Part shown: piece after piece, positions 1,477-12,261 of the stretch
Position numbering within the stretch: position 1 is the stretch's first letter
Layout of the letters: every line of letters starts with the position of its first letter
Virus record (IMG/VR): IMGVR_UViG_3300032229_000114
Span: 1 to 28,358 of that record
From: a virus
Length of the DNA: 28,358 nt
Reading direction: 5' to 3' (one strand)
The notes under the pieces: model-generated
What the model saw: only the letters and a program-made list of their open reading frames with translations
Told to the model about the DNA's origin: nothing
Databases searched by the model: none
Translations under genes and position numbers: made by a program

Positions 1477-3452
1477 CAGATGAGCGGCCTGTATTGCTGC
1501 ATCCCAGTGTTGTAGATGCCTTGCAATTGTTCGGTTGTCGACTGCGGGTTTAGATATGCCTGCCGCAATTGGCCTTGCAGTGTCTGAGCCTGTGGCACAG
1601 CCAGCAGCCCTTGAGAGACATTTGCACCAAGCTGCTTATACAGATCGTTGATGTATGCGCTTCTATCAGTGATAGGCTGAGAAGGAGCAGTATACGTCAC
1701 TGGCGCAGGCGTTCCTGTTGGCTGCAAAAAGTCACTGATCTGCGGCATCGGAACAGCGCCTTGCAATGAAGCAAGATTTGCATTTGGCGCAGATGCGGCA
1801 GTTTCCAATCGTCCTTGATAAGCCTTTGCCTGATCTGGTGTCATGTAACCACGGCCAACATACGTATCGAGAACGTCGTTTACCGATTTGAAGTAATTGA
1901 AAAACTCAGGCGAACGCATATTGTTATAACGAGTTTGAAGTTGGTCAAGACGCTCTTGCGTCATTCCTGTGTTTTCAGGAGTTGAAGGCCCGAGATTGCC
2001 GCCGATCTGTGTTATCGGAGCATTTGTTGGCGCAGCACCTTCGTTCAGTGTCAACTGAGCAGATTGCGGCAATGTTGCCTGCGCGGCGCTATCCACAAGA
2101 TTAGTTGCCGCTGCTGGCGCGGGCGCAACCGGAGCCGCATTTGCCGGAGGAGTGTATGAATTTACCGTTTGTATGCCTGAGAAAAATTGGGCTTCTGGAC
2201 CAAACCCATACTTCTCATAATCCGTGATATTAGGATTAATCTGCCTGCGCGATGCAAGGCCAGCAAAGTCAGTGCCAGCGCCAAACGGGGAGACATATGG
2301 CGTTGTCGGGCCAGCGCCGCCACCTCCGCCTCCGCCAGCGACTGCACTCCCGACAAGAGATGCTAGGGTCGCATAATCCATAATCCCCATATTTGAGATA
2401 ATTTTGTCAAGGAAACTTGTTCCACCAGCGCCAGCGTTCGTTGCTGCAAGTTCTGCGTCTGTCATGCCAGTCCTTGAATTAGCCAAATCTGCTGCGTTGG
2501 TTGTTGAACCAGCAGCATTAGCCGCAGCAGCCGCAGCAGCCGCACCGCCAGCAAGCAATGACGCTGGGACGAGGTTTGTCGGCATATTTGCTGTCAGCGT
2601 GAGGTCTGGTCCAAACGTTTCCGCTGGCGGCATCGTGTTTGTTGCATTTGATGCAGTTGTAGAACCAGCAGTATTTGCAGCATTAGCCGTGTTGGCAAGT
2701 GCCGCAGCGGCACCGCCCGACGCAACAAGGGCCGCAGCCTCAGCCGCAGTGAAGCCCTTCGCAATGAGAGCGGTAATTACAAGGTCAGAGCCAGCAGCGG
2801 CAACAGCAGGAACAGCCGCAGCACTGACCAATCCAGCAACCGTAGATGCAGGAACGGCAGCAGTTCCCACAGGCGCAAAGCTAAGGCCCTCCAGCGCGCC
2901 CGGAATAAGACCGCTACTAGCACCACCAGCGCCGCCACCAGCAGCACCTAGCAGCGCATTGCCGCCAAAGTACGCCCCAGCAGTTGCAGCAAGAATTCCC
3001 GCCGTCGGAAGAATATACTCTTTAAAAAAGCTGTTTGGAACATCTCCAGCAATAGGTATGCCGTACTGGTCTCCAACCTTGATTGCCTCCCCAAACCCAG
3101 AAGGAAGCGTTGTGTGCATATCAAGTGTTTGGCCTGCAGGCGACCCGCCCATGTCGAGCAATCGCCAGTCAGCCTTATTACCCTGCGGAACAAGCTCTGT
3201 ATTAATGATGCTTAGAATGCGTTTAATTTCTTCTGGCGTACTCCCAGAGGCAAGCACCTTGTTCGTATTATAATCATACAGGGTGTATTGCTTGCCCGGA
3301 TATAGGCCGACCATCCCGTTTTCGCCAAAGCCCGGAGCGTTGCCATAAACAAGGTAATTTGGTGCCATGTATTCTGTCGGCAACAGATTTTGGCTTGCGA
3401 GGATTTGCTCTCGTTCAGCCGGATTGCGTCCTGTGGCAGGAGTTACAGCCAT
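1476..3452 (-). CDS. Large Ala/Gly-rich putative virion protein
   Basis: 658 residues. Residues 1-140 look globular (MAPNYLVYGNAPGFGENG, YPGKQYTLYDYNTNKV). Residues about 145-380 are low-complexity Ala/Gly/Val with several hydrophobic helices, a poly-Ala run and a GGGGGG run. The C-terminal 150 residues are helical and Gln-rich (LDQLQTRYNNMRSPEFFNYF). It follows the portal with a TAATG overlap and precedes the scaffold. Hydrophobic, Ala-rich proteins in this context are often minor virion or DNA-ejection proteins that contact membranes, but no specific family is recognised here. The low-complexity middle could vary in length among relatives. The function is inference from composition and position. 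Confidence 0.75.
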   Translation of the reverse strand: MAVTPATGRNPAEREQILASQNLLPTEYMAPNYLVYGNAPGFGENGMVGLYPGKQYTLYDYNTNKVLASGSTPEEIKRILSIINTELVPQGNKADWRLLDMGGSPAGQTLDMHTTLPSGFGEAIKVGDQYGIPIAGDVPNSFFKEYILPTAGILAATAGAYFGGNALLGAAGGGAGGASSGLIPGALEGLSFAPVGTAAVPASTVAGLVSAAAVPAVAAAGSDLVITALIAKGFTAAEAAALVASGGAAAALANTANAANTAGSTTASNATNTMPPAETFGPDLTLTANMPTNLVPASLLAGGAAAAAAAANAAGSTTNAADLANSRTGMTDAELAATNAGAGGTSFLDKIISNMGIMDYATLASLVGSAVAGGGGGGGAGPTTPYVSPFGAGTDFAGLASRRQINPNITDYEKYGFGPEAQFFSGIQTVNSYTPPANAAPVAPAPAAATNLVDSAAQATLPQSAQLTLNEGAAPTNAPITQIGGNLGPSTPENTGMTQERLDQLQTRYNNMRSPEFFNYFKSVNDVLDTYVGRGYMTPDQAKAYQGRLETAASAPNANLASLQGAVPMPQISDFLQPTGTPAPVTYTAPSQPITDRSAYINDLYKQLGANVSQGLLAVPQAQTLQGQLRQAYLNPQSTTEQLQGIYNTGMQQYRPLI

Positions 3453-5689
3453 TACATCATTCCTTCTGGCGGGAGGACAACAGGAGCTTCCACGGTTGCG
3501 GGCATAATCGGCTGCTGCTGGGCTGCCTGAATTACCGAGCGTTCCAGTTCGCCCTGCTGACGGAGAAACTCGCGGTCACGCTGCATCAATGCCTGAATGT
3601 TGGCCGTGTTGACCTGTGAACCATACTTGGCTTCGATCTCAGCAGACTTCAGCATCACCTCTGCGTCCAACTTATCGCGTTCGCGGTCATCCTTCAGCAG
3701 CATATCTTCGCGCTGCAGTTCAAGCTCTGCAGCCTTCTTCTGGATGTCAGCCTGAATGCTCTGAGCCTGAACCTGTGCCAAGATTGCTTCTGGGCTAGGC
3801 GGTGGCGGCGTCGGTGCTGGTGGCTGGAAGCCCTTGGGATCGGTGAAGAATTGCGAAACATCCTTGAAGCCAGCAATCGAAAGCATCTGCTCAAGCGTGT
3901 TGTAATAACCGCCCATGTTGACCAGCGGATTGTTCATCGGGCCAAGCTGCTGCATAATCATCTCTTGCTTCTGAGCAATAAGATTGAGGAAACCCATTTT
4001 CTGTTCGTCAGAACCAGTGCCAAGCGCGATGTTGACAATAACATCCATGTCAGCATCCCAAACGCGGGGATCGATTGGAACGAACTTATTCCGCAGGCGA
4101 ACCATGCGCGGCTTGTCCTGATTTTTAACAAGCAATTTCAATGACTTATCCATCAAAGTCTTGAAGCCTGTTTCCGCAAACATACGGCAGATCAGTTCGA
4201 TGTGCTGCTGGGCTGCCGTCACGGTTGCATTGACAGCCGTTGCAGTCGCTCCATTCAGTGCGTTTGCATCAAGGCCAGCGGAAGCCTTGTTAATACCAGT
4301 GCGGCTTTCCTTCACCTGATCCATATACTCAAGCATCGGGAATGCGGCGCCAGAGACGTTTGGCGTGATGAAGGGCTGCACGGCACCCGGCGACTTCATG
4401 CGGATGATGCCACCAACTTCGGTATTCAACACGTCCTCTATGGAAGCCTGACCTTCAACAACACCCATGCGCGGGTAGATCGACTGAGCGAGGCTATCCA
4501 GCGTGTTACGCATGATGGACGACTTGATGCGCTGAATGTCCATCACGACGTCAGCGATTGACATACCGAAGAACGTGTGCGGCTCAGGATCGGGGCAGAA
4601 GTTAAAGAACGGATGGTCGTCTACGGCTTCGTTATGAAGCAGCTTATAGGCCGATCCACCAACACAGACCTTCCGCAGTTCAGCAATGCCGTCGCCATCC
4701 ATATCAACATACAGATAGCCTTCGATATAAAGAACCTTGCGGCTTGCTACGTCCGTTCGCCCAGCGCCAAGAATGGTCGCCTGTGGGTTGCGGTCAAACG
4801 TCTCTTGGTTGCCTTCGAAGTCGTCCTGAGTTTCATACCCAAGGTTTTCAATCTCATCCTGCTCATAGCCCAACTGGACAAGCTCAGAGACGGTCATGTA
4901 GCGACGATGGCCGATAAACTCGAAGTCCTCCATCGACTTGGCACGGCGGTCAATCAGAAGCTCTTCAGGCGGAAGCGCGCAGACGTTAAGGCGGCCTTCC
5001 TTCATTTTGCGCACGACAGTGACGCTATAAACTGGCGTCTGAACAACGGTTGCAATGCCTTCAGGCGTCATGAACTCCGTTTCGGAGTATTCAACCTCAA
5101 CCTCACGGAGTTCAACCTCCGGGTCAGACATGAGAACCATATAGCCGTTCTCATCAATGCCTTCGATTTCATAGGTCTTGACGGTTTCCGTCTCATCCCA
5201 CCAAACCTTACCAAAGCCGTTCATGCGGACAAGCGCGTCCTTGAACATGGAATAGCAGTGCGAGAACAGGTTGTTGTCGCGTGTCAGGCAGTAGTTGACA
5301 TAATCCGTTGCCTGCTCTGCGTTTTCAACGTCCTCCGGGCCATTCGGAGCATATTCAACCACTGTCGAAGAGCCGAAGAACACCCGCATAATGGATGGCA
5401 TAATGGCCTGCACGGTATCGCGCACGTCCATTGAGACGACCTGAGAGCGGCCTTCCTCTTCGTTGCCAAATGGTTCGCCCTTGTAATACTGACCAGCCTC
5501 TGCACGGGCAGGAGAAATAACGTCATCAATGTAGGCTTGAGCGTCGTCGATCTCGCCAGCAACAATGCTCTGCAGCTGCTCATCGGTCATGGCTTCATCT
5601 TCAGGCATTTCGGCACTGATCTCAATTCCGCTGTCGAGCGCCATTTCCATTTCCGTGTCAGACGGCTTTGCGTTCTTCCGATATGCCAT
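3452..5689 (-). CDS. Portal protein (P22-like podovirus portal)
   Basis: 745 residues, close to the size of P22 gp1-type portals. The N-terminal half contains the family-like segments RSQVVSMDVRDTVQAIMPS and NGFGKVWWDETETV, plus HPFFNFCPDPEPHTFFGMS before a long helical stretch (MRNTLDSLAQ). It then has INKASAGLDANALNG, which is characteristic of these portals. The last 130 residues are Gln-rich helix, like a barrel domain. The portal dodecamer forms the DNA channel at one head vertex and binds the terminase during packaging. It lies downstream of TerL in the usual order, separated by small genes and an antisense HNH gene. The stop codon overlaps the next start as TAATG. Confidence 0.92.
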   Translation of the reverse strand: MAYRKNAKPSDTEMEMALDSGIEISAEMPEDEAMTDEQLQSIVAGEIDDAQAYIDDVISPARAEAGQYYKGEPFGNEEEGRSQVVSMDVRDTVQAIMPSIMRVFFGSSTVVEYAPNGPEDVENAEQATDYVNYCLTRDNNLFSHCYSMFKDALVRMNGFGKVWWDETETVKTYEIEGIDENGYMVLMSDPEVELREVEVEYSETEFMTPEGIATVVQTPVYSVTVVRKMKEGRLNVCALPPEELLIDRRAKSMEDFEFIGHRRYMTVSELVQLGYEQDEIENLGYETQDDFEGNQETFDRNPQATILGAGRTDVASRKVLYIEGYLYVDMDGDGIAELRKVCVGGSAYKLLHNEAVDDHPFFNFCPDPEPHTFFGMSIADVVMDIQRIKSSIMRNTLDSLAQSIYPRMGVVEGQASIEDVLNTEVGGIIRMKSPGAVQPFITPNVSGAAFPMLEYMDQVKESRTGINKASAGLDANALNGATATAVNATVTAAQQHIELICRMFAETGFKTLMDKSLKLLVKNQDKPRMVRLRNKFVPIDPRVWDADMDVIVNIALGTGSDEQKMGFLNLIAQKQEMIMQQLGPMNNPLVNMGGYYNTLEQMLSIAGFKDVSQFFTDPKGFQPPAPTPPPPSPEAILAQVQAQSIQADIQKKAAELELQREDMLLKDDRERDKLDAEVMLKSAEIEAKYGSQVNTANIQALMQRDREFLRQQGELERSVIQAAQQQPIMPATVEAPVVLPPEGMM

Positions 5690-5698
5690 AGTTTTGCC

Positions 5699-5863
5699 TT
5701 ACTTCTTTTTCGACTTGCCAGCTTCGGACAGAGCAATCGCAATAGCCTGCTTGCGGCTCTTTACAAGCGGGCCTGACTTGCCGCCGCTATGCAACTTTCC
5801 CGCCTTGTATTCTCTATAAACTTTTGCTATCTTCTTCTCTGCCTTAGTAGGAGATTTTGCCAT
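5699..5863 (-). CDS. Small basic DUF6496-like protein
   Basis: 54 residues, encoded as ATG at 5863-5861 to TAA at 5701-5699. The sequence starts MAKSPTKAEKKIAKVYREYK and contains GKLHSGGKSGPLVKSRKQ followed by AIAIALSEAGKSKKK. The 'GKLHSG.K.GP.VK.RKQAIAIALSEAGKSKK' pattern matches DUF6496, a very small Lys-rich family common in phages and some bacteria, of unknown function. It lies just before the portal gene. Its start codon shares the palindrome CATG with the start of the divergent HNH gene, so its ribosome-binding sequence (AGGTG) lies inside the first codons of that gene. Confidence 0.85.
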   Translation of the reverse strand: MAKSPTKAEKKIAKVYREYKAGKLHSGGKSGPLVKSRKQAIAIALSEAGKSKKK

Positions 5864-6365
5864 GACATCACCTGAAGTTTGGAAGCCAGTTCCCGGTTAT
5901 GAGGGTATATACGAAATTAGCAACTTTGGTAAGGTTAACTCAATCAAGGATGGCGAGCGGTTTCCTCGAAAACTTAATACCACAACTCACTATACAAGTT
6001 TTAGCGCCAAAAAACTACCCGAACATAAATCTCAAAAATCCTTTTATATCCACCGCCTCGTTGCGCAAGTTTTCATCGGGCCTCGGCCAGACGGCTGCAT
6101 CATTAGGCACCTTGATGGGGACAGGAGGAATAATCACGTCTCAAATTTAGCCTATGGAACGAAGGAAGAGAATGTTGCTGACACAATTGCGCACGGGTCT
6201 TGCGCAAAAGAGAATAATGGGCGAGCGCTGTTCACGAACGCTGGTGTTTTAGCTGTTACGATGCTGATTGAGAGAGGCGTTAGCTTATCTGAAATTGCTC
6301 GCGGCTGCGGGGTATCCATATCAACCATCCATGCAATTAAGACCGGAAGAAATTGGAGCGGGTAG
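5862..6365 (+). CDS. HNH homing endonuclease (NUMOD4-HNH-HTH)
   Basis: 167 residues. Residues 5-30 (EVWKPVPGYEGIYEISNFG) are a clear NUMOD4 motif. Residues 62-96 form the HNH core (IHRLVAQVF, RHLDGDRRNNHVSNLAYGT), with H64, H83, N90/N91 and H92 among the likely catalytic and metal-binding residues. Residues 125-163 (LIERGVSLSEIARGCGVS) form a C-terminal helix-turn-helix. This is the standard build of phage free-standing homing endonucleases, which nick or cut a related genome lacking the gene and spread by repair. It is antisense to the packaging/head block. AGGAG lies seven bases before the ATG. The first half looks more AT-rich than its neighbours, consistent with recent entry. Confidence 0.93.
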   Translation: MTSPEVWKPVPGYEGIYEISNFGKVNSIKDGERFPRKLNTTTHYTSFSAKKLPEHKSQKSFYIHRLVAQVFIGPRPDGCIIRHLDGDRRNNHVSNLAYGTKEENVADTIAHGSCAKENNGRALFTNAGVLAVTMLIERGVSLSEIARGCGVSISTIHAIKTGRNWSG

Positions 6366-6547: not shown

Positions 6548-6846
6548 TTGGACTTCCCCTTGTTTCGAGCGGAGATGGCTTTGGACTTGGCTTTCGCGTC
6601 TGCTTTAGATGACGCACCCCATGCTTGCAGCGATAGGAGGAGGCGAGTTGGTCGGCCCTTCTCGTCACGCTCCGGCCCCGGCATTCCACCCATACGTGCT
6701 AAGAATGACGCCCTCCGTGGATTGTCGCCCGACTTAACCGGCGCTTTCAGGTTCATTCCTTCCGCTTTGGCAGACGCACGACCTTTGGCGTTCAAGCCAC
6801 CAGATGCCGACTTCCCTTCCTTGCGCTGCCATGCAGGAGACTTCAT
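6544..6846 (-). CDS. DUF6321-like small basic protein
   Basis: 100 residues, strongly basic. The segments MKSPAWQRKEGKSASGGLNA, APVKSGDNPRRASFLARMGG and PGPERDEKGRPTRLLLSL match the pattern of DUF6321, a phage family of unknown function found near terminase and portal genes. Its ATG overlaps the stop of TerL as TAATG, and its stop overlaps the next GTG start, so it is embedded in the packaging operon. A role in DNA packaging or as a minor head protein is plausible, but nothing in the sequence proves it. Confidence 0.85.
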   Translation of the reverse strand: MKSPAWQRKEGKSASGGLNAKGRASAKAEGMNLKAPVKSGDNPRRASFLARMGGMPGPERDEKGRPTRLLLSLQAWGASSKADAKAKSKAISARNKGKSK

Positions 6847-8111
6847 TAAACGATACCACGTATATTTCGCCTGATAGGCGTATAACCCATTTGCTCTCTG
6901 TGCGCTATGGCAAAGTATCTGGCCGCGTCTGCGTAGTGGCTGGTCCAGTCATGGAACGGATGCGTCTGAAACTCTTGGCGCTTTTCGTCATAGTTGCGAC
7001 GATACATCCGAAGGGCTTCGATGCCAGTCTTGCAAGCCGTCTTATCAAACCAAGAGCGCGGCAAAAGCATACGCAGAGCCTGAATGCCGTCCATGATGTC
7101 CATGCGCGGTGCCACTTCGATGTTACGAAGCCCAAGTTCACTCAGCACTTCAAGGCGGCTCTTGCCTGTCCCCAGTTCACGGACGCGCACGTCATGCGGG
7201 AGATAGTGATTGCCCCAGACGTAGGGCTTATCCTGTAGCTGCTTGACATACCAGTCGAGCGCAACTCCCTCACCCTTCAGGCAGTCGATCCAGCGTGTCT
7301 CGCCGCCATGCGCTTGGACGAACCAGATCACCGTGCTGTCAGACATACCCAAGTCCCATGCGGTATGCACTGGAAGGGCTGGGTCATACGGAACGCTTGT
7401 GATGCGATTGGAGGCTTCCATCTCGCTAAACTCTTTGCCGTAATACGCTCCACGAACAGCGGCTTCGAAGCTGCACTCGTATTCCTGTGCGTATTCGTCC
7501 TCGCTCATCATCCGTCGAGCGTCGCAAAGTTCCTTGTCGTCCAGCAGCCCTGTCTCAGAAGCCTTGAGCATCAGACGCGACCAGTCTTCGTCCTCCTCTG
7601 CGTTCTGCCACAAGTCAAAGAAGACGTTCTTGCCCTTGGGCGTACCAATGAAGATGGCCCAACCCTTACGGTCAGACAATGCTGGGCGGATTACCTGCGT
7701 CCAGACTGTTGGGTTCATGTCCCCAAATTCGTCGAGGACAACGCCATCAAGATAGATACCACGAAGTCGATCGGGATTGTCAGCGCCATAAACCCGGATG
7801 CGGGCCTTGTTGGGCAACTCTACCCATAGTTCGCTCTCATTAATCTTGACGCCCGGAAGGAAGGCAACAGCTTCCTTGATATACGTCCAAGCGATGTCTT
7901 TGGCTTGGTTAAGCTGCGGCGCGATGTAAGCAAAGCGCGGGCTGCTGAGTTTGCAAGCAAGCGCACGACGCACAATCTCATTGACGCAGGCAACAGTCTT
8001 ACCGGCACGACGATGTGCAACGGTAATCATCCATCGTGTTTTACGCTTGTGGAGCGGGAGAAACTGTTCCCGCGCTCTATACGGACTGATTAGGTCAATC
8101 GTCTGTGTCAT
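6846..8111 (-). CDS. terL: Terminase large subunit (packaging ATPase and nuclease)
   Basis: 421 residues from the chosen start MTQTIDLISPYRAREQF. An ATG three bases upstream is equally possible, and an open frame extends further into terS but lacks terminase-like sequence. Walker A is AHRRAGKT (residues 33-40), Walker B is VVLDEF (124-129), and the coupling motif is IGTPKGKN (155-162). The nuclease domain begins with AWDLGMSDSTVIW, where D253 is a likely metal ligand. The enzyme powers DNA translocation through the portal and cuts the concatemer. It overlaps the end of terS by 17 bases, so translation is probably coupled. Confidence 0.96.
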   Translation of the reverse strand: MTQTIDLISPYRAREQFLPLHKRKTRWMITVAHRRAGKTVACVNEIVRRALACKLSSPRFAYIAPQLNQAKDIAWTYIKEAVAFLPGVKINESELWVELPNKARIRVYGADNPDRLRGIYLDGVVLDEFGDMNPTVWTQVIRPALSDRKGWAIFIGTPKGKNVFFDLWQNAEEDEDWSRLMLKASETGLLDDKELCDARRMMSEDEYAQEYECSFEAAVRGAYYGKEFSEMEASNRITSVPYDPALPVHTAWDLGMSDSTVIWFVQAHGGETRWIDCLKGEGVALDWYVKQLQDKPYVWGNHYLPHDVRVRELGTGKSRLEVLSELGLRNIEVAPRMDIMDGIQALRMLLPRSWFDKTACKTGIEALRMYRRNYDEKRQEFQTHPFHDWTSHYADAARYFAIAHREQMGYTPIRRNIRGIV

Positions 8112-8481
8112 CATCCAAGCCGGGATAATGCACAATACCGATGTTTCCTTGGACGTGGAGCTTAGATGGCTCGTTGTAGCCGTGCATTGCATTCAACTCT
8201 TTGACGGCTGCAACCTTAACGCTTCCCGCGCCTGTTTCGTATGTTTCCTTGAGCGCCCTTACAGACATCTCACGGGTCCATAGAACCTTCTCAGCAAGAG
8301 CGCCTTTTAGTTCAGCGATCCTATCCGCCACCTTACTGTTTCGGACAAGCTCAGAAGCGCGAGCATAAATGGTGTTATCAGCCATGCCTTCTGCGTCATA
8401 AGCAGCACGATATGCGCTTGCTTGGTCGAGACCGTCAGCGATGCCTTGAGCGAATGCTTCCTGTTTAAATGTCAATGTCAT
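8095..8481 (-). CDS. terS: Terminase small subunit
   Basis: 128 residues. The N-terminal part (TFKQEAFAQGIADGLDQAS, then AYRAAYDAEGMADNTIYARA and LVRNSKVADRIAEL) is the classic Terminase_2-type helix-turn-helix of small subunits ('Q..FA....G....AYR.AY....', 'A..L..N..V..RI..L'). The second half carries an oligomerisation-like helix (WTREMSVRALKETYETG). TerS recognises the packaging site and recruits TerL. It is the first gene after a 71-base gap that contains a candidate promoter, so it may open the late operon. No strong ribosome-binding site is seen; GGGAG lies about 13 bases upstream of the ATG. Confidence 0.93.
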   Translation of the reverse strand: MTLTFKQEAFAQGIADGLDQASAYRAAYDAEGMADNTIYARASELVRNSKVADRIAELKGALAEKVLWTREMSVRALKETYETGAGSVKVAAVKELNAMHGYNEPSKLHVQGNIGIVHYPGLDDDTDD

Positions 8482-8552: not shown

Positions 8553-9014
8553 TTATGACCTGTTCTCCCATCGTGCGTAAATTCGCTCCAATGGTCGACG
8601 GACTTCGACGGAATGCGCGTTCATTTTTGTGCCAACCCATCTGGCGACAGCCTCTCCCCGGATAAGCTCTTCAGGCAGTTCACGATGATCCACTTCGGAG
8701 AGCAGTGTTTGAAGTTCTGATTGCAAGTCCTCTGCGCTGGTTCCATTATCCTTGCGCCACACAGTCACCTCCCATGTGTGACCGTGAATGCCATACCCAT
8801 GCCCTTTATGCGCTGCACAAAGAATTGCAGATGCGCCTGTTAGCGTAAGACACTTCTTCACCTTGTCATTCCTATATAGATTAAAGCGGCATATGGCTGA
8901 TTTAACCGTGCTTTTTGGAAGCCCCAGCGCCTCCGCACACTGCGTTCTGCTAAGTCCGCTTTTATATAAGATTTTCAATTCTCCAACCTGTTTTGTGGTC
9001 CACTCCCGTCTCAT
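8553..9014 (-). CDS. HTH domain fused to a QueD/6-pyruvoyl-tetrahydropterin synthase-like domain
   Basis: 153 residues from MRREWTTKQVGELKIL; the ATG overlaps the DpdA-like stop as TAATG. An upstream in-frame ATG would overlap the neighbour by 97 bases and is rejected. Residues 5-47 are a GcrA-like helix-turn-helix (GLSRTQCAEALGLPKSTVK). Residues 55-150 resemble QueD/PTPS: ILCAAH, IHGHTWEV and EVDHREL, with zinc-ligand candidates H69, H77 and H79 and the D109-H110 pair. The Cys normally found between the first and second His is absent (that loop is short), and the C-terminal catalytic Glu position reads Arg (VEVRRP). Canonical QueD makes carboxytetrahydropterin for 7-deazaguanine synthesis. 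This version may do a different step, for example a DpdL-like decarboxylation. Confidence 0.75.
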   Translation of the reverse strand: MRREWTTKQVGELKILYKSGLSRTQCAEALGLPKSTVKSAICRFNLYRNDKVKKCLTLTGASAILCAAHKGHGYGIHGHTWEVTVWRKDNGTSAEDLQSELQTLLSEVDHRELPEELIRGEAVARWVGTKMNAHSVEVRRPLERIYARWENRS

Positions 9015-9691
9015 TATGCCAATTCCAATTGCCGTGGCCGTGCAGTGTATTTCATAGGACATTGAGCAGCATCCCATCGTTCTGCGCGGGATTTTGGCCG
9101 TCCATCGCAATGATGATTTCTGGCGATGTCAGTGCTGTCAACAGACGCAAAAGGCCAACGCTGACGGCTCATCTGCATTCCACGAAGCATATGAATATTG
9201 GGAGTTCTAGAATGGCGTATAGAAATTTGCTCCCAAGCGTCATCCATCCGGGCTTCCCACTTGGCTGTCAGAAGTTGAGCATACTCTCCAGATGATCCGA
9301 TGCAGATGCGCGGCCACTCATCGCATAAGCGAAGCAATCGACTAATCGGTTCATCCATATGCCAGACAGGTGCTCCGCGATCTCCGTGCGGCCATTGGCT
9401 AATCAGGTCATCTTGTGGCGCTGAGCCTGCGTTGATGACATCTGGAATGACCGCCCATGTCGTCGGGCAATCAAGCCAAACATCGCACCAATCATAATAC
9501 TTTGCCCAGTCTGTCGGCTTACCCTGCTTCCAAGCTGTAAACGCTCCGTTGTCGAGCATAACAGACTGGCCGATCTCGTGGCAAAGTTTCACCTGTTGCG
9601 GCGCTGCGTGAGACACACAAAAGTGACGTCCAGATAATTCCAGCATCACTGATGTTGGCGTTATCGGCGTCCCATGATAGTGAATTGTCAC
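9014..9691 (-). CDS. DpdA-like guanine transglycosylase (7-deazaguanine insertion into DNA)
   Basis: 225 residues, GTG start at 9691-9689, with AAGAGG seven bases upstream. The sequence has a tRNA-guanine-transglycosylase-like plan: LDNGAFTAW (46-54) matches the DSGGF base-recognition loop, VIPDV (81-85) follows, GSSGE (132-136) comes next, and SVDSTDIARN (183-192) matches the TGT nucleophile region 'D..PTR.AR', with D185 as candidate nucleophile. The TGT zinc cysteines are not seen. Short proteins of this type in phages are DpdA subfamily members that exchange guanine for a 7-deazaguanine base in DNA, blocking restriction enzymes. The next gene is QueD-like, which strengthens the call. Which DpdA subfamily it belongs to (DpdA2 is my guess) needs a tree. 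Confidence 0.82.
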   Translation of the reverse strand: MTIHYHGTPITPTSVMLELSGRHFCVSHAAPQQVKLCHEIGQSVMLDNGAFTAWKQGKPTDWAKYYDWCDVWLDCPTTWAVIPDVINAGSAPQDDLISQWPHGDRGAPVWHMDEPISRLLRLCDEWPRICIGSSGEYAQLLTAKWEARMDDAWEQISIRHSRTPNIHMLRGMQMSRQRWPFASVDSTDIARNHHCDGRPKSRAERWDAAQCPMKYTARPRQLELA

Positions 9692-11043: not shown

Positions 11044-11207
11044 CACTTGCTCACCAAGTCGAAGAAGCGGCGACCATTCTCATCTTTGTGAATTATGGCC
11101 TTCACGGTTTTCATGTTTTGGTTAATCCAGTCTACATAGTCGTCAAAGTGTGTCGGTGCAGTGTGGGCGGTGCCACCTGCCGTGCGTGTGATTTTCTTAT
11201 CGGTCAT
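11043..11207 (-). CDS. Small hypothetical protein after the methyltransferase
   Basis: 54 residues from MTDKKITRTAGGTAHTAPTH, ending KAIIHKDENGRRFFDLVSK. The chosen ATG overlaps the end of the methyltransferase gene by 11 bases; an ATG ten codons upstream is less likely because it overlaps more. It is soluble and belongs to no recognised family. The position suggests co-translation with the methyltransferase. Confidence 0.6.
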   Translation of the reverse strand: MTDKKITRTAGGTAHTAPTHFDDYVDWINQNMKTVKAIIHKDENGRRFFDLVSK

Positions 11208-12261
11208 TGATCTGTTCCACTTTCTGAATGCGTTCACCGATCCAGCGCATGACTGGGACGGCCATTGAATTTCCTAAAACCTTATAACGCGGGCCATCTG
11301 GGCAATCACCTTCTAATTTGTTGCGCCAAGGAATGCAGGTGAAATTGTCAGGAAAGCCTTGTAGACGTTCACATTCGATGGGCGTTAAACGGCGCACACA
11401 ATCCGACGAGGCTACATACGCTTTCGTGTCCGGCGCATGATGTGATCCACTCTGCGTGTTTAAGGCAGGGCTGACGACTGGAACAATGTGATCGAAGTCG
11501 CCTTGAACACCTCCCTCACCGGGGCGTCGCGTTCTCAAGGTGCCGACAGTGACAACGTGGCCGCTCTCTGCAGCTTCTGTTCCACGCGGCCCTTTGCTCA
11601 TACCGGCTGTTAATGGGCCAACTATATCTCGATGCCAGCATTCCGCTCCGCCACGCTTTGCAGTGACTGCTGCAGGGCGTCCGGCAACTTCTTCCCTCTC
11701 CTGTCTGCGCGGCGAAGAATGCCCTTGCAGGCTGTGGCGCTCAAAAAGAACCGCTGCGGCACTGGCTGCGTCTCCAAGACATCCGACAACGAACACACGG
11801 CGGCGCCTCTGGGCCACTCCGAAGTATTGAGCGTCAAGCACTCTGTAGGCGAACCCATACCCGAGTTCGACCAAGCCCCCGAGAATGGAACCAAAGTCCC
11901 GTCCTCCGTTTGATGACAAGACGCCGGGGACGTTCTCCCAAACCACCCATCTGGGCCGTGTTCTGTCAGCAAGCCTAAGAAACTCAAGCGCCAAGTTGCC
12001 ACGGTCATCGCCCAAACCTCCTCTGAGGCCAGCGACTGAGAAGGACTGGCAGGGCGTTCCTCCGACAAGAAGGTCAATTGGTCCATATTCATTTTCCTGA
12101 ATTGTTGTGAAGTCGCCATGCAATGGGACATCTGGGTAATGGTGAGATAGGACGGCACGAGGAAATGGCTCAATCTCACTGAAGAAAGCAGGCTCCCAGC
12201 CAAGAGGATGCCAAGCTGCGGTCGCGGCCTCAATGCCGCTGCAAACGCTGCCATACCTCAT
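11197..12261 (-). CDS. dcm: DNA (cytosine-5)-methyltransferase
   Basis: 354 residues with the full motif set of C5-cytosine methyltransferases. Motif I is GSVCSGIEAATAAW (4-17), binding S-adenosylmethionine. Motif IV is GGTPCQSFSVAG with catalytic Cys71. Motif VI is ENV (109-111), motif VIII QRRRR (151-155), motif IX RRLTPIECERLQGFPD, and motif X YKVLGNSMAVPV. The target-recognition region between VIII and IX is of ordinary length, and its target sequence cannot be read. No cognate restriction enzyme lies nearby, so this is probably an orphan, protective enzyme. ATGA couples it to the replication gene upstream. It lies in the same leftward block as the DpdA-like gene. Confidence 0.95.
   Translation of the reverse strand: MRYGSVCSGIEAATAAWHPLGWEPAFFSEIEPFPRAVLSHHYPDVPLHGDFTTIQENEYGPIDLLVGGTPCQSFSVAGLRGGLGDDRGNLALEFLRLADRTRPRWVVWENVPGVLSSNGGRDFGSILGGLVELGYGFAYRVLDAQYFGVAQRRRRVFVVGCLGDAASAAAVLFERHSLQGHSSPRRQEREEVAGRPAAVTAKRGGAECWHRDIVGPLTAGMSKGPRGTEAAESGHVVTVGTLRTRRPGEGGVQGDFDHIVPVVSPALNTQSGSHHAPDTKAYVASSDCVRRLTPIECERLQGFPDNFTCIPWRNKLEGDCPDGPRYKVLGNSMAVPVMRWIGERIQKVEQINDR

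Follow-up and report, generated by a model that had tools for sequence, protein, structure and literature searches.

Does the short QueD-like protein encoded beside a DpdA-like transglycosylase in this phage DNA make an ordinary precursor, or does it do something else for the modification of the phage genome? The window, i.e. the whole stretch of DNA that was analysed, is the IMG/VR virus record IMGVR_UViG_3300032229_000114 (28,358 bp, classed linear). It is probably a fragment of a phage genome, so that more pathway genes may sit outside it. A reading of the letters without database searches (hereafter the sequence-only reading) had proposed here a 225-residue TGT-like protein followed by a QueD-like domain joined to it by TAATG. 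Both open reading frames are found on the minus strand at that place, the DpdA-like one starting at GTG and the QueD-like one at ATG, and the overlap is there (Table 1).

Small ORFs lie upstream of the pair, and the terminase subunits (8481..8095 and 8192..6846) lie downstream. Fusions 97% and 82% identical to the second protein adjoin DpdA in contigs L003 and L004 respectively. Compared with their relatives in L004, both genes are under purifying selection (dN 0.03 / dS 1.7 for the DpdA-like gene and dN 0.10 / dS 2.8 for its partner). This selection, a match to PHROG_887 and the 107 phage records with DpdA-like relatives retrieved by tblastn at E<=1e-3 indicate that these are not chance reading frames.

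Table 1. Features of the DpdA-like/QueD-like locus (positions in the window; residues numbered within each protein).
Feature	Position	Strand	Basis
DpdA-like DNA guanine transglycosylase gene, 225 aa	9014..9691	-	PHROG_887; hhalign vs 9g-type DpdA; AlphaFold2 model
DNGAF motif, residues 47-51, counterpart of 9g DSGAF	9539..9553	-	D47, N48, G49 invariant in 43 sequences; hhalign
GSSGE motif, residues 132-136, G132 invariant	9284..9298	-	alignment and hhalign
His167, invariant, same segment as 9g His196	9191..9193	-	alignment and hhalign; PMC6884629
SVDSTDIARN motif, residues 183-192, putative nucleophile Asp185, counterpart of 9g SCDSS	9116..9145	-	S183, D185, S186 invariant; hhalign
TAATG overlap of DpdA stop and HTH-QueDs start, shared A; translational coupling	9012..9016	-	sequence
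HTH-QueDs fusion gene, 153 aa	8553..9014	-	Pfam, family alignment, predicted structure; 97% and 82% identical fusions in L003, L004
GcrA-like helix-turn-helix, residues 4-54	8853..9005	-	PF07750 E 5e-4, PF13518 E 4e-4; helices 7-18, 23-30, 34-43
QueDs domain, short QueD/PTPS T-fold, residues 56-153	8556..8849	-	family alignment; Foldseek; profile search
Zn-ligand histidines H69, H77, H79 (AAH...HGH); Gly73 at QueD Cys position, -4 from HGH	8778..8810	-	H69, H77, H79 invariant in alignment
Asp109-His110, catalytic dyad of QueD/PTPS, kept	8685..8690	-	DH in 36/40 aligned sequences
Arg140 replacing QueD substrate-anchoring Glu, then Glu143	8586..8597	-	R 38/38, E143 36/38 QueDs

Elsewhere in the window, a SU10-type portal protein gene (3452-5689, minus strand; PF23899, E 5e-209) suggests a podovirus-like phage. 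A NUMOD4/HNH homing endonuclease look-alike (5862-6365, plus strand) lies between the terminase and portal genes and runs opposite to its neighbours. A Dcm-like cytosine-C5 DNA methyltransferase (11197-12261, minus strand; PF00145, E 2e-53) is possibly a second DNA-protection gene of the same phage.

The identity of the first protein rests on profiles. PHROG_887 (queuine tRNA-ribosyltransferase) covers its residues 1-192 with an E-value of 9.9e-55, and hhalign against a profile of the phage 9g, RHEph04 and BcepGomr DpdAs gives a probability of 96.8 (E 2.3e-10, 157 columns), in keeping with the DpdA-like label of the sequence-only reading. This alignment pairs DNGAF with DSGAF, PVWHMDEP with PCFHAGEP, GSSGE with GGLVG and SVDST with SCDSS (window and 9g type respectively). 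The DNGAF, GSSGE and SVDSTDIARN sites that had been pointed out are thus present, and a CxCxxC zinc motif is absent, as had been noted. Among 43 aligned homologues D47, N48, G49, D84, H111, G132, H167, R170, D185 and S186 are invariant, and so is S183. H167 lies in the segment that matches His196 of 9g DpdA (IHMLRG vs VHGFG), where the alignment is gapped; DpdA2 is devoid of this histidine (PMC6884629).

Other searches were less informative. Pfam, NCBIfam and phmmer against the PDB gave nothing credible for this protein alone; the Pfam TGT family (PF01702) did not match it at E<=10, nor did a single E. coli TGT sequence by hhalign. Against the immuto phage DpdA the match was weak and partial, the DpdA1 profile being required. 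With the AlphaFold2 model (pLDDT 92), a structure search of BFVD returned phage queuine tRNA-ribosyltransferases and, more weakly, a protein of Vibrio phage nt-1 which is probably the DpdA2 of that phage. In the PDB, Foldseek returned only low-TM barrels, with the TGT-like Cap10 (9ntn) on top at a TM-score of about 0.5, so the fold alone is no proof of DpdA identity. The candidate references Vibrio phage phiVC8, Cellulophaga phi38:1 and Acinetobacter phage SH-Ab 15497 carried no annotated deazaguanine gene.

The tblastn relatives include Rhizobium phage RHph_N3_2, Pam5, Caulobacter phage DMCA, BTP1, SPN3UB, SfI and 7-11. Relatives begin at an ATG equivalent to the GTG of the window (M-TIHYHGTPIT), and 225-240 aa is a normal length for the family; a truncated DpdA was considered and rejected on this ground. 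In the tree the window DpdA falls in the clade of the 7-11, SfI, BTP1 and SPN3UB proteins, separated by a long branch (4.4) from the 9g/CAjan/Rosebush type. By profile and by its conserved active-site residues the 225-aa protein is a DpdA-type transglycosylase, with DNA as its presumed substrate. The DpdA of Salmonella phage 7-11 (L115) scores 147 bits with the family model, and this phage is, to our knowledge, the only member of the family with measured DNA. In that DNA dADG was measured at 50 per 10^6 nt (PMC6884629), so that only about 0.02% of G is modified: the presence of the base counts for a DpdA module, and its low level counts against the reading that we favour below.

The second protein had been described as a QueD-like domain. 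This description stands, but the protein starts with a GcrA-like helix-turn-helix (HTH) which had been missed. We call the short QueD-like family QueDs; it comprises about 40 distinct sequences of 98-105 aa. Taken alone, the window protein matches PF01242 (PTPS/QueD) with an E-value of 3e-4, just below the curated cut-off, while 31 of 32 family members match it, the best at 4.5e-8. The comparison with E. coli QueD by hhalign gives 90%, PH0634 (2dj6) is matched by profile (E 1.6e-5), and Foldseek of the predicted fold finds E. coli QueD (3qna, E 4.5e-6; 4ntk, E 1.2e-5). The weak similarity of the single sequence is therefore firmed up by the family matches and by the predicted fold. No PHROG matched the QueDs proteins scanned, and among the 50,697 phage records of INPHARED a detectable QueDs is found in Caulobacter phage DMCA only.

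Only 3 of 32 family members have the HTH, namely the proteins of the window, L003 and L004. L010 and L012 possess a separate GcrA-like HTH ORF after DpdA, an arrangement that makes local fusion a likely origin of HTH-QueDs. The N-terminal extensions of QueDs in L072, L088, L095 and L101 were also considered as HTH domains and rejected; they look like upstream in-frame reading.

Whether QueDs could be a true QueD was left open by the sequence-only reading; its active site argues against it. In the PTPS/QueD family the Cys of the CxxxHGH motif is catalytic and a Glu anchors the pterin. Of the 11 QueD proteins used for comparison 10 contain the Cys, whereas in the short family only the clade L078-L080/L089 has it. 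Outside this clade the position is mostly occupied by Asp, Glu, Gly or Thr (Asp or Glu in 21 of 40). At the column of the anchoring Glu (vKET) all 38 members of the short family that reach it have Arg, vs Glu in 10 of 11 comparison proteins. The Cys-less exception among the latter, L035, has Arg too, i.e. both changes travel together there. For canonical QueD encoded beside sister DpdAs (L043, L048 and L049, with QueE) both Cys and Glu are kept. They are also kept in the QueD of Cellulophaga phiST, RHEph04, BcepGomr and immuto, which were tried as QueDs and rejected. With Cys lost and Glu changed to Arg, both the chemistry and the substrate contact by which QueD is defined are gone, and on these residues QueDs is unlikely to be an ordinary QueD. 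A non-Cys residue is nevertheless possible at the Cys position in relatives of PTPS: an entry for the PTPS of Plasmodium vivax gives Glu37 as catalytic.

Two variants are worth mentioning. In L035 (6022-6429) and L042 (1505-1915) a longer QueD-like protein, Cys-less and with Arg for the anchoring Glu, is encoded directly upstream of DpdA and is possibly an intermediate on the way to QueDs. The QueDs copies of L018 (6426-6752) and L019 (6038-6364), which still adjoin DpdA, have a zinc motif degraded to HEH and read DGR where the family has DH; they are possibly inactive or divergent.

To what extent is QueDs tied to DpdA? IMG/VR was scanned with a QueDs alignment whose query was drawn from DpdA neighbours, the scan itself using QueDs sequence only. 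It gave 46 loci, two of which (L108 and L110) are canonical QueD, leaving 44 that contain several near-duplicates. A DpdA-like ORF adjoins QueDs in 42 of these 44 contigs, one small ORF being interposed in L010-type contigs; the exceptions are L097, where the contig ends, and L101. The usual order is QueDs-DpdA, and the reverse is found in the window, L003, L004, L074, L081, L086 and L090. Adjacency is thus kept while the order varies. The linkage is real and, more than profile, fold or active-site residues, supports the pairing of a DpdA-type transglycosylase with a QueD-like protein. In the tree, moreover, QueDs adjoins members of several DpdA clades. Fifteen of the 44 contigs also have QueE, nearly always in the order QueE-QueDs-DpdA and with gene ends that overlap; QueC occurs in L099/L100 only. 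A scan of genomes added two MAGs. In one, from Sphingomonas (L122), QueDs is next to DpdA; in the other, a proteobacterial one (L123), it abuts a very divergent DpdA-like ORF (6958-8004; LDNGAWTAF) to which the family model gives 19 bits. The latter suggests that QueDs may pair with further DpdA types.

Several other genes recur in these cassettes. In L010 (7746-8132), L011-L013 and L051, QueDs and DpdA are separated by a nucleoside 2-deoxyribosyltransferase-like gene (PF05014), which in L097 (539-913) directly follows QueDs; it places a base-exchange enzyme in the cassette. Cassettes with QueDs and cassettes with YhhQ both encode, next to DpdA, a conserved small protein of about 85 aa (Pam5_29; weak PHROG_9572 match; L068:6681-6941, L001:15726-15980, L056:10731-10976, L099:8278-8520, L118:3518-3763, L122:9004-9264). 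PAPS-reductase-like genes are found near the cassette in L004 (2317-3051, directly after HTH-QueDs), L008 (12426-13199) and L016 (12161-12988).

The same DpdA family adjoins YhhQ, canonical QueD (with or without QueE) or QueDs, never two of them at one locus. YhhQ is the neighbour in RHph_N3_2, Pam5, Flyfo, RHph_X2_30 and many contigs. Among 70 DpdA loci, QueDs occurs with YhhQ or canonical QueD in none (naive P 1e-6, a value that ignores phylogeny). On a tree of 73 DpdAs the partner labels need 19 changes, the QueDs label alone about 6 (5-7 by bootstrap; the starred branches force at least 2). YhhQ is described as involved in preQ0 transport (PMC5372724). This swapping with YhhQ and QueD makes the supply or editing of the precursor the most likely role of the cassette's second gene.

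Where would the precursor come from? The sequence-only reading had seen no queC, queE or folE in the window and had looked to the host, or to DNA outside the window, for it. The searches agree: nothing in the 28-kb record matches YhhQ, QueC, radical-SAM enzymes (QueE) or Pfam TGT, and the phmmer reference search finds no FolE. The same picture emerges from 13 larger QueDs phage records (34-79 kb, complete DMCA included), in which FolE, QueC and YhhQ are all absent; each has one PTPS, and four have a radical-SAM (QueE) gene. There is no QueC near the canonical QueD of L043, L048 and L049 either. DMCA infects Caulobacter vibrioides, and the control genome of this species carries its own QueC and PTPS, so a redundant phage QueD would add little there.

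The reading that we favour, with a probability of roughly 45%, is that the pair is a minimal 7-deazaguanine DNA-modification module in which QueDs would edit the precursor base after QueE. Host FolE, QueD and QueE (or a phage QueE) would lead to 7-carboxy-7-deazaguanine (CDG). QueDs, a repurposed QueD fold, would probably not make CPH4 from dihydroneopterin triphosphate but would alter a 7-deazaguanine base, most simply by decarboxylating CDG to 7-deazaguanine before host QueC, and would thereby provide DpdA with a base that the host does not use. DpdA would then exchange guanine in the phage DNA for this base through Asp185, its putative nucleophile, and the altered N7 face of the modified guanine would hinder restriction. 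For DNA incorporation and for the blocking of restriction we infer from characterised relatives (PMC6884629). In the window phage and its two near relatives the HTH would perhaps tether or regulate QueDs. More tentative is a stronger form of the proposal, in which QueDs would be a new T-fold family (Cys-less, Glu-to-Arg) editing a 7-deazaguanine precursor of the host queuosine pathway, the phage DNA would carry a 7-deazaguanine base (7-deazaguanine itself or one not seen before) made by a two- or three-gene cassette, and the HTH would tether the enzyme to DNA in the window lineage.

QueDs could instead still be a CPH4 synthase, i.e. a QueD boosting the first committed step, with host or phage QueE and host QueC finishing preQ0 and DpdA inserting dPreQ0 or dADG. 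The retained zinc histidines and Asp-His dyad fit this. So do several observations that also count against editing: QueDs fills the slot of canonical QueD in QueE-QueD-DpdA and never occurs alongside it, as expected also of a QueD isozyme; half of the members have an Asp or Glu that could substitute for Cys, and the clade L078-L080/L089 even keeps the Cys; and L099/L100 encode QueC, needless for a decarboxylation. The window, however, has Gly at this position, the Glu-to-Arg change at the substrate anchor is invariant, and the host species of DMCA already has PTPS and QueC. We hold a QueD activity to be rather unlikely.

In a second alternative QueDs would have no enzymatic activity and would serve DpdA as a binding partner or carrier, for substrate hand-over or as a specificity subunit, with the HTH adding DNA contact in the window lineage. 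There is an analogy in eukaryotes, where the inactive QTRT2 supports the active TGT subunit. The lost catalytic residues, the near-obligate adjacency with overlapping frames and the HTH fusion would all suit such a role. But a pure scaffold need not keep the zinc ligands and the Asp-His dyad, which are almost invariant family-wide, and the co-occurrence of QueE suggests metabolism; a non-enzymatic QueDs thus seems unlikely. Finally, it is improbable that the DpdA-like protein targets tRNA or another molecule, the pair tuning host queuosine. The protein is a distant TGT relative, and Cap10, which is TGT-like and partners a CD-NTase, belongs to the wider superfamily too. But the profile closest to the DpdA-like protein is that of phage DpdA, an enzyme that acts on DNA and does not stand in for the TGT of E. 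coli (PMC6884629); the tRNA-binding zinc domain is absent, and there is no profile match to E. coli TGT or to Pfam TGT.

The editing of a precursor by QueDs, if it occurs, would explain how compact phages obtain a modified guanine that their host does not make, and would add a small new enzyme to the chemistry of modified DNA. For most phages with a lone DpdA neither a precursor route nor the inserted base is known (PMC6884629), a question on which a conserved partner, in exchange with a preQ0 transporter and with true QueD, gives a handle. DpdA and QueDs side by side in dozens of environmental phages point to an uncharacterised step in the disguise of phage DNA, and DMCA, the one isolate found with the pair, makes the system testable now.

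Compared with known systems, the window DpdA shares with the phage DpdAs of the 9g/CAjan/Rosebush type the homology over 157 columns, the aligned DSGAF/DNGAF, PxxH.EP, GG/GS and xDSS/DST motifs and perhaps, where the alignment has gaps, an equivalent of His196. It differs by its length (225 aa vs about 300-317 aa), by its long branch in the tree and by having no full preQ0 pathway adjoining. The singleton DpdAs of gamma-proteobacterial phages (Salmonella phage 7-11, SfI, BTP1, SPN3UB) belong to the same PHROG and the same clade and likewise have no adjoining pathway genes, but 7-11 and SfI are devoid of a QueDs partner. The phages that associate DpdA with YhhQ (DUF165/VUT), such as Rhizobium phage RHph_N3_2, Pseudanabaena phage Pam5 and the Flyfo siphovirus, have a DpdA of the same family with an adjoining partner gene; this partner is a preQ0-import protein and not QueDs, and never both. 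In CBASS, Cap9/Cap10 modules pair a TGT-fold protein with a 7-deazaguanine enzyme. They are unlike the pair described here: the structural match is at a TM-score of about 0.5, Cap10 acts on the CD-NTase protein and its partner is QueC-like.

On the side of the partner, QueDs has in common with QueD/PTPS (E. coli QueD 4ntk; PH0634 2dj6) the T-fold, the three zinc histidines and the Asp-His dyad. It differs in its 98-105 aa, in the Cys gone in nearly all members, in the Arg for Glu in all and in one HTH-fused lineage. DpdL is reportedly a QueD-like protein of DpdA phages, a predicted CDG decarboxylase acting after QueE. QueDs would resemble it in this, and a DpdL-type role, with 7-deazaguanine as the base, is compatible with our data. 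As QueDs is found in a single INPHARED record (DMCA), a DpdL described from other sequenced phages would at least not be a close relative of QueDs. DpdA-based 7-deazaguanine modification of DNA is already known; the pairing of DpdA with a QueDs of rewired active site appears to be a new variant, though less new should QueDs prove orthologous to DpdL.
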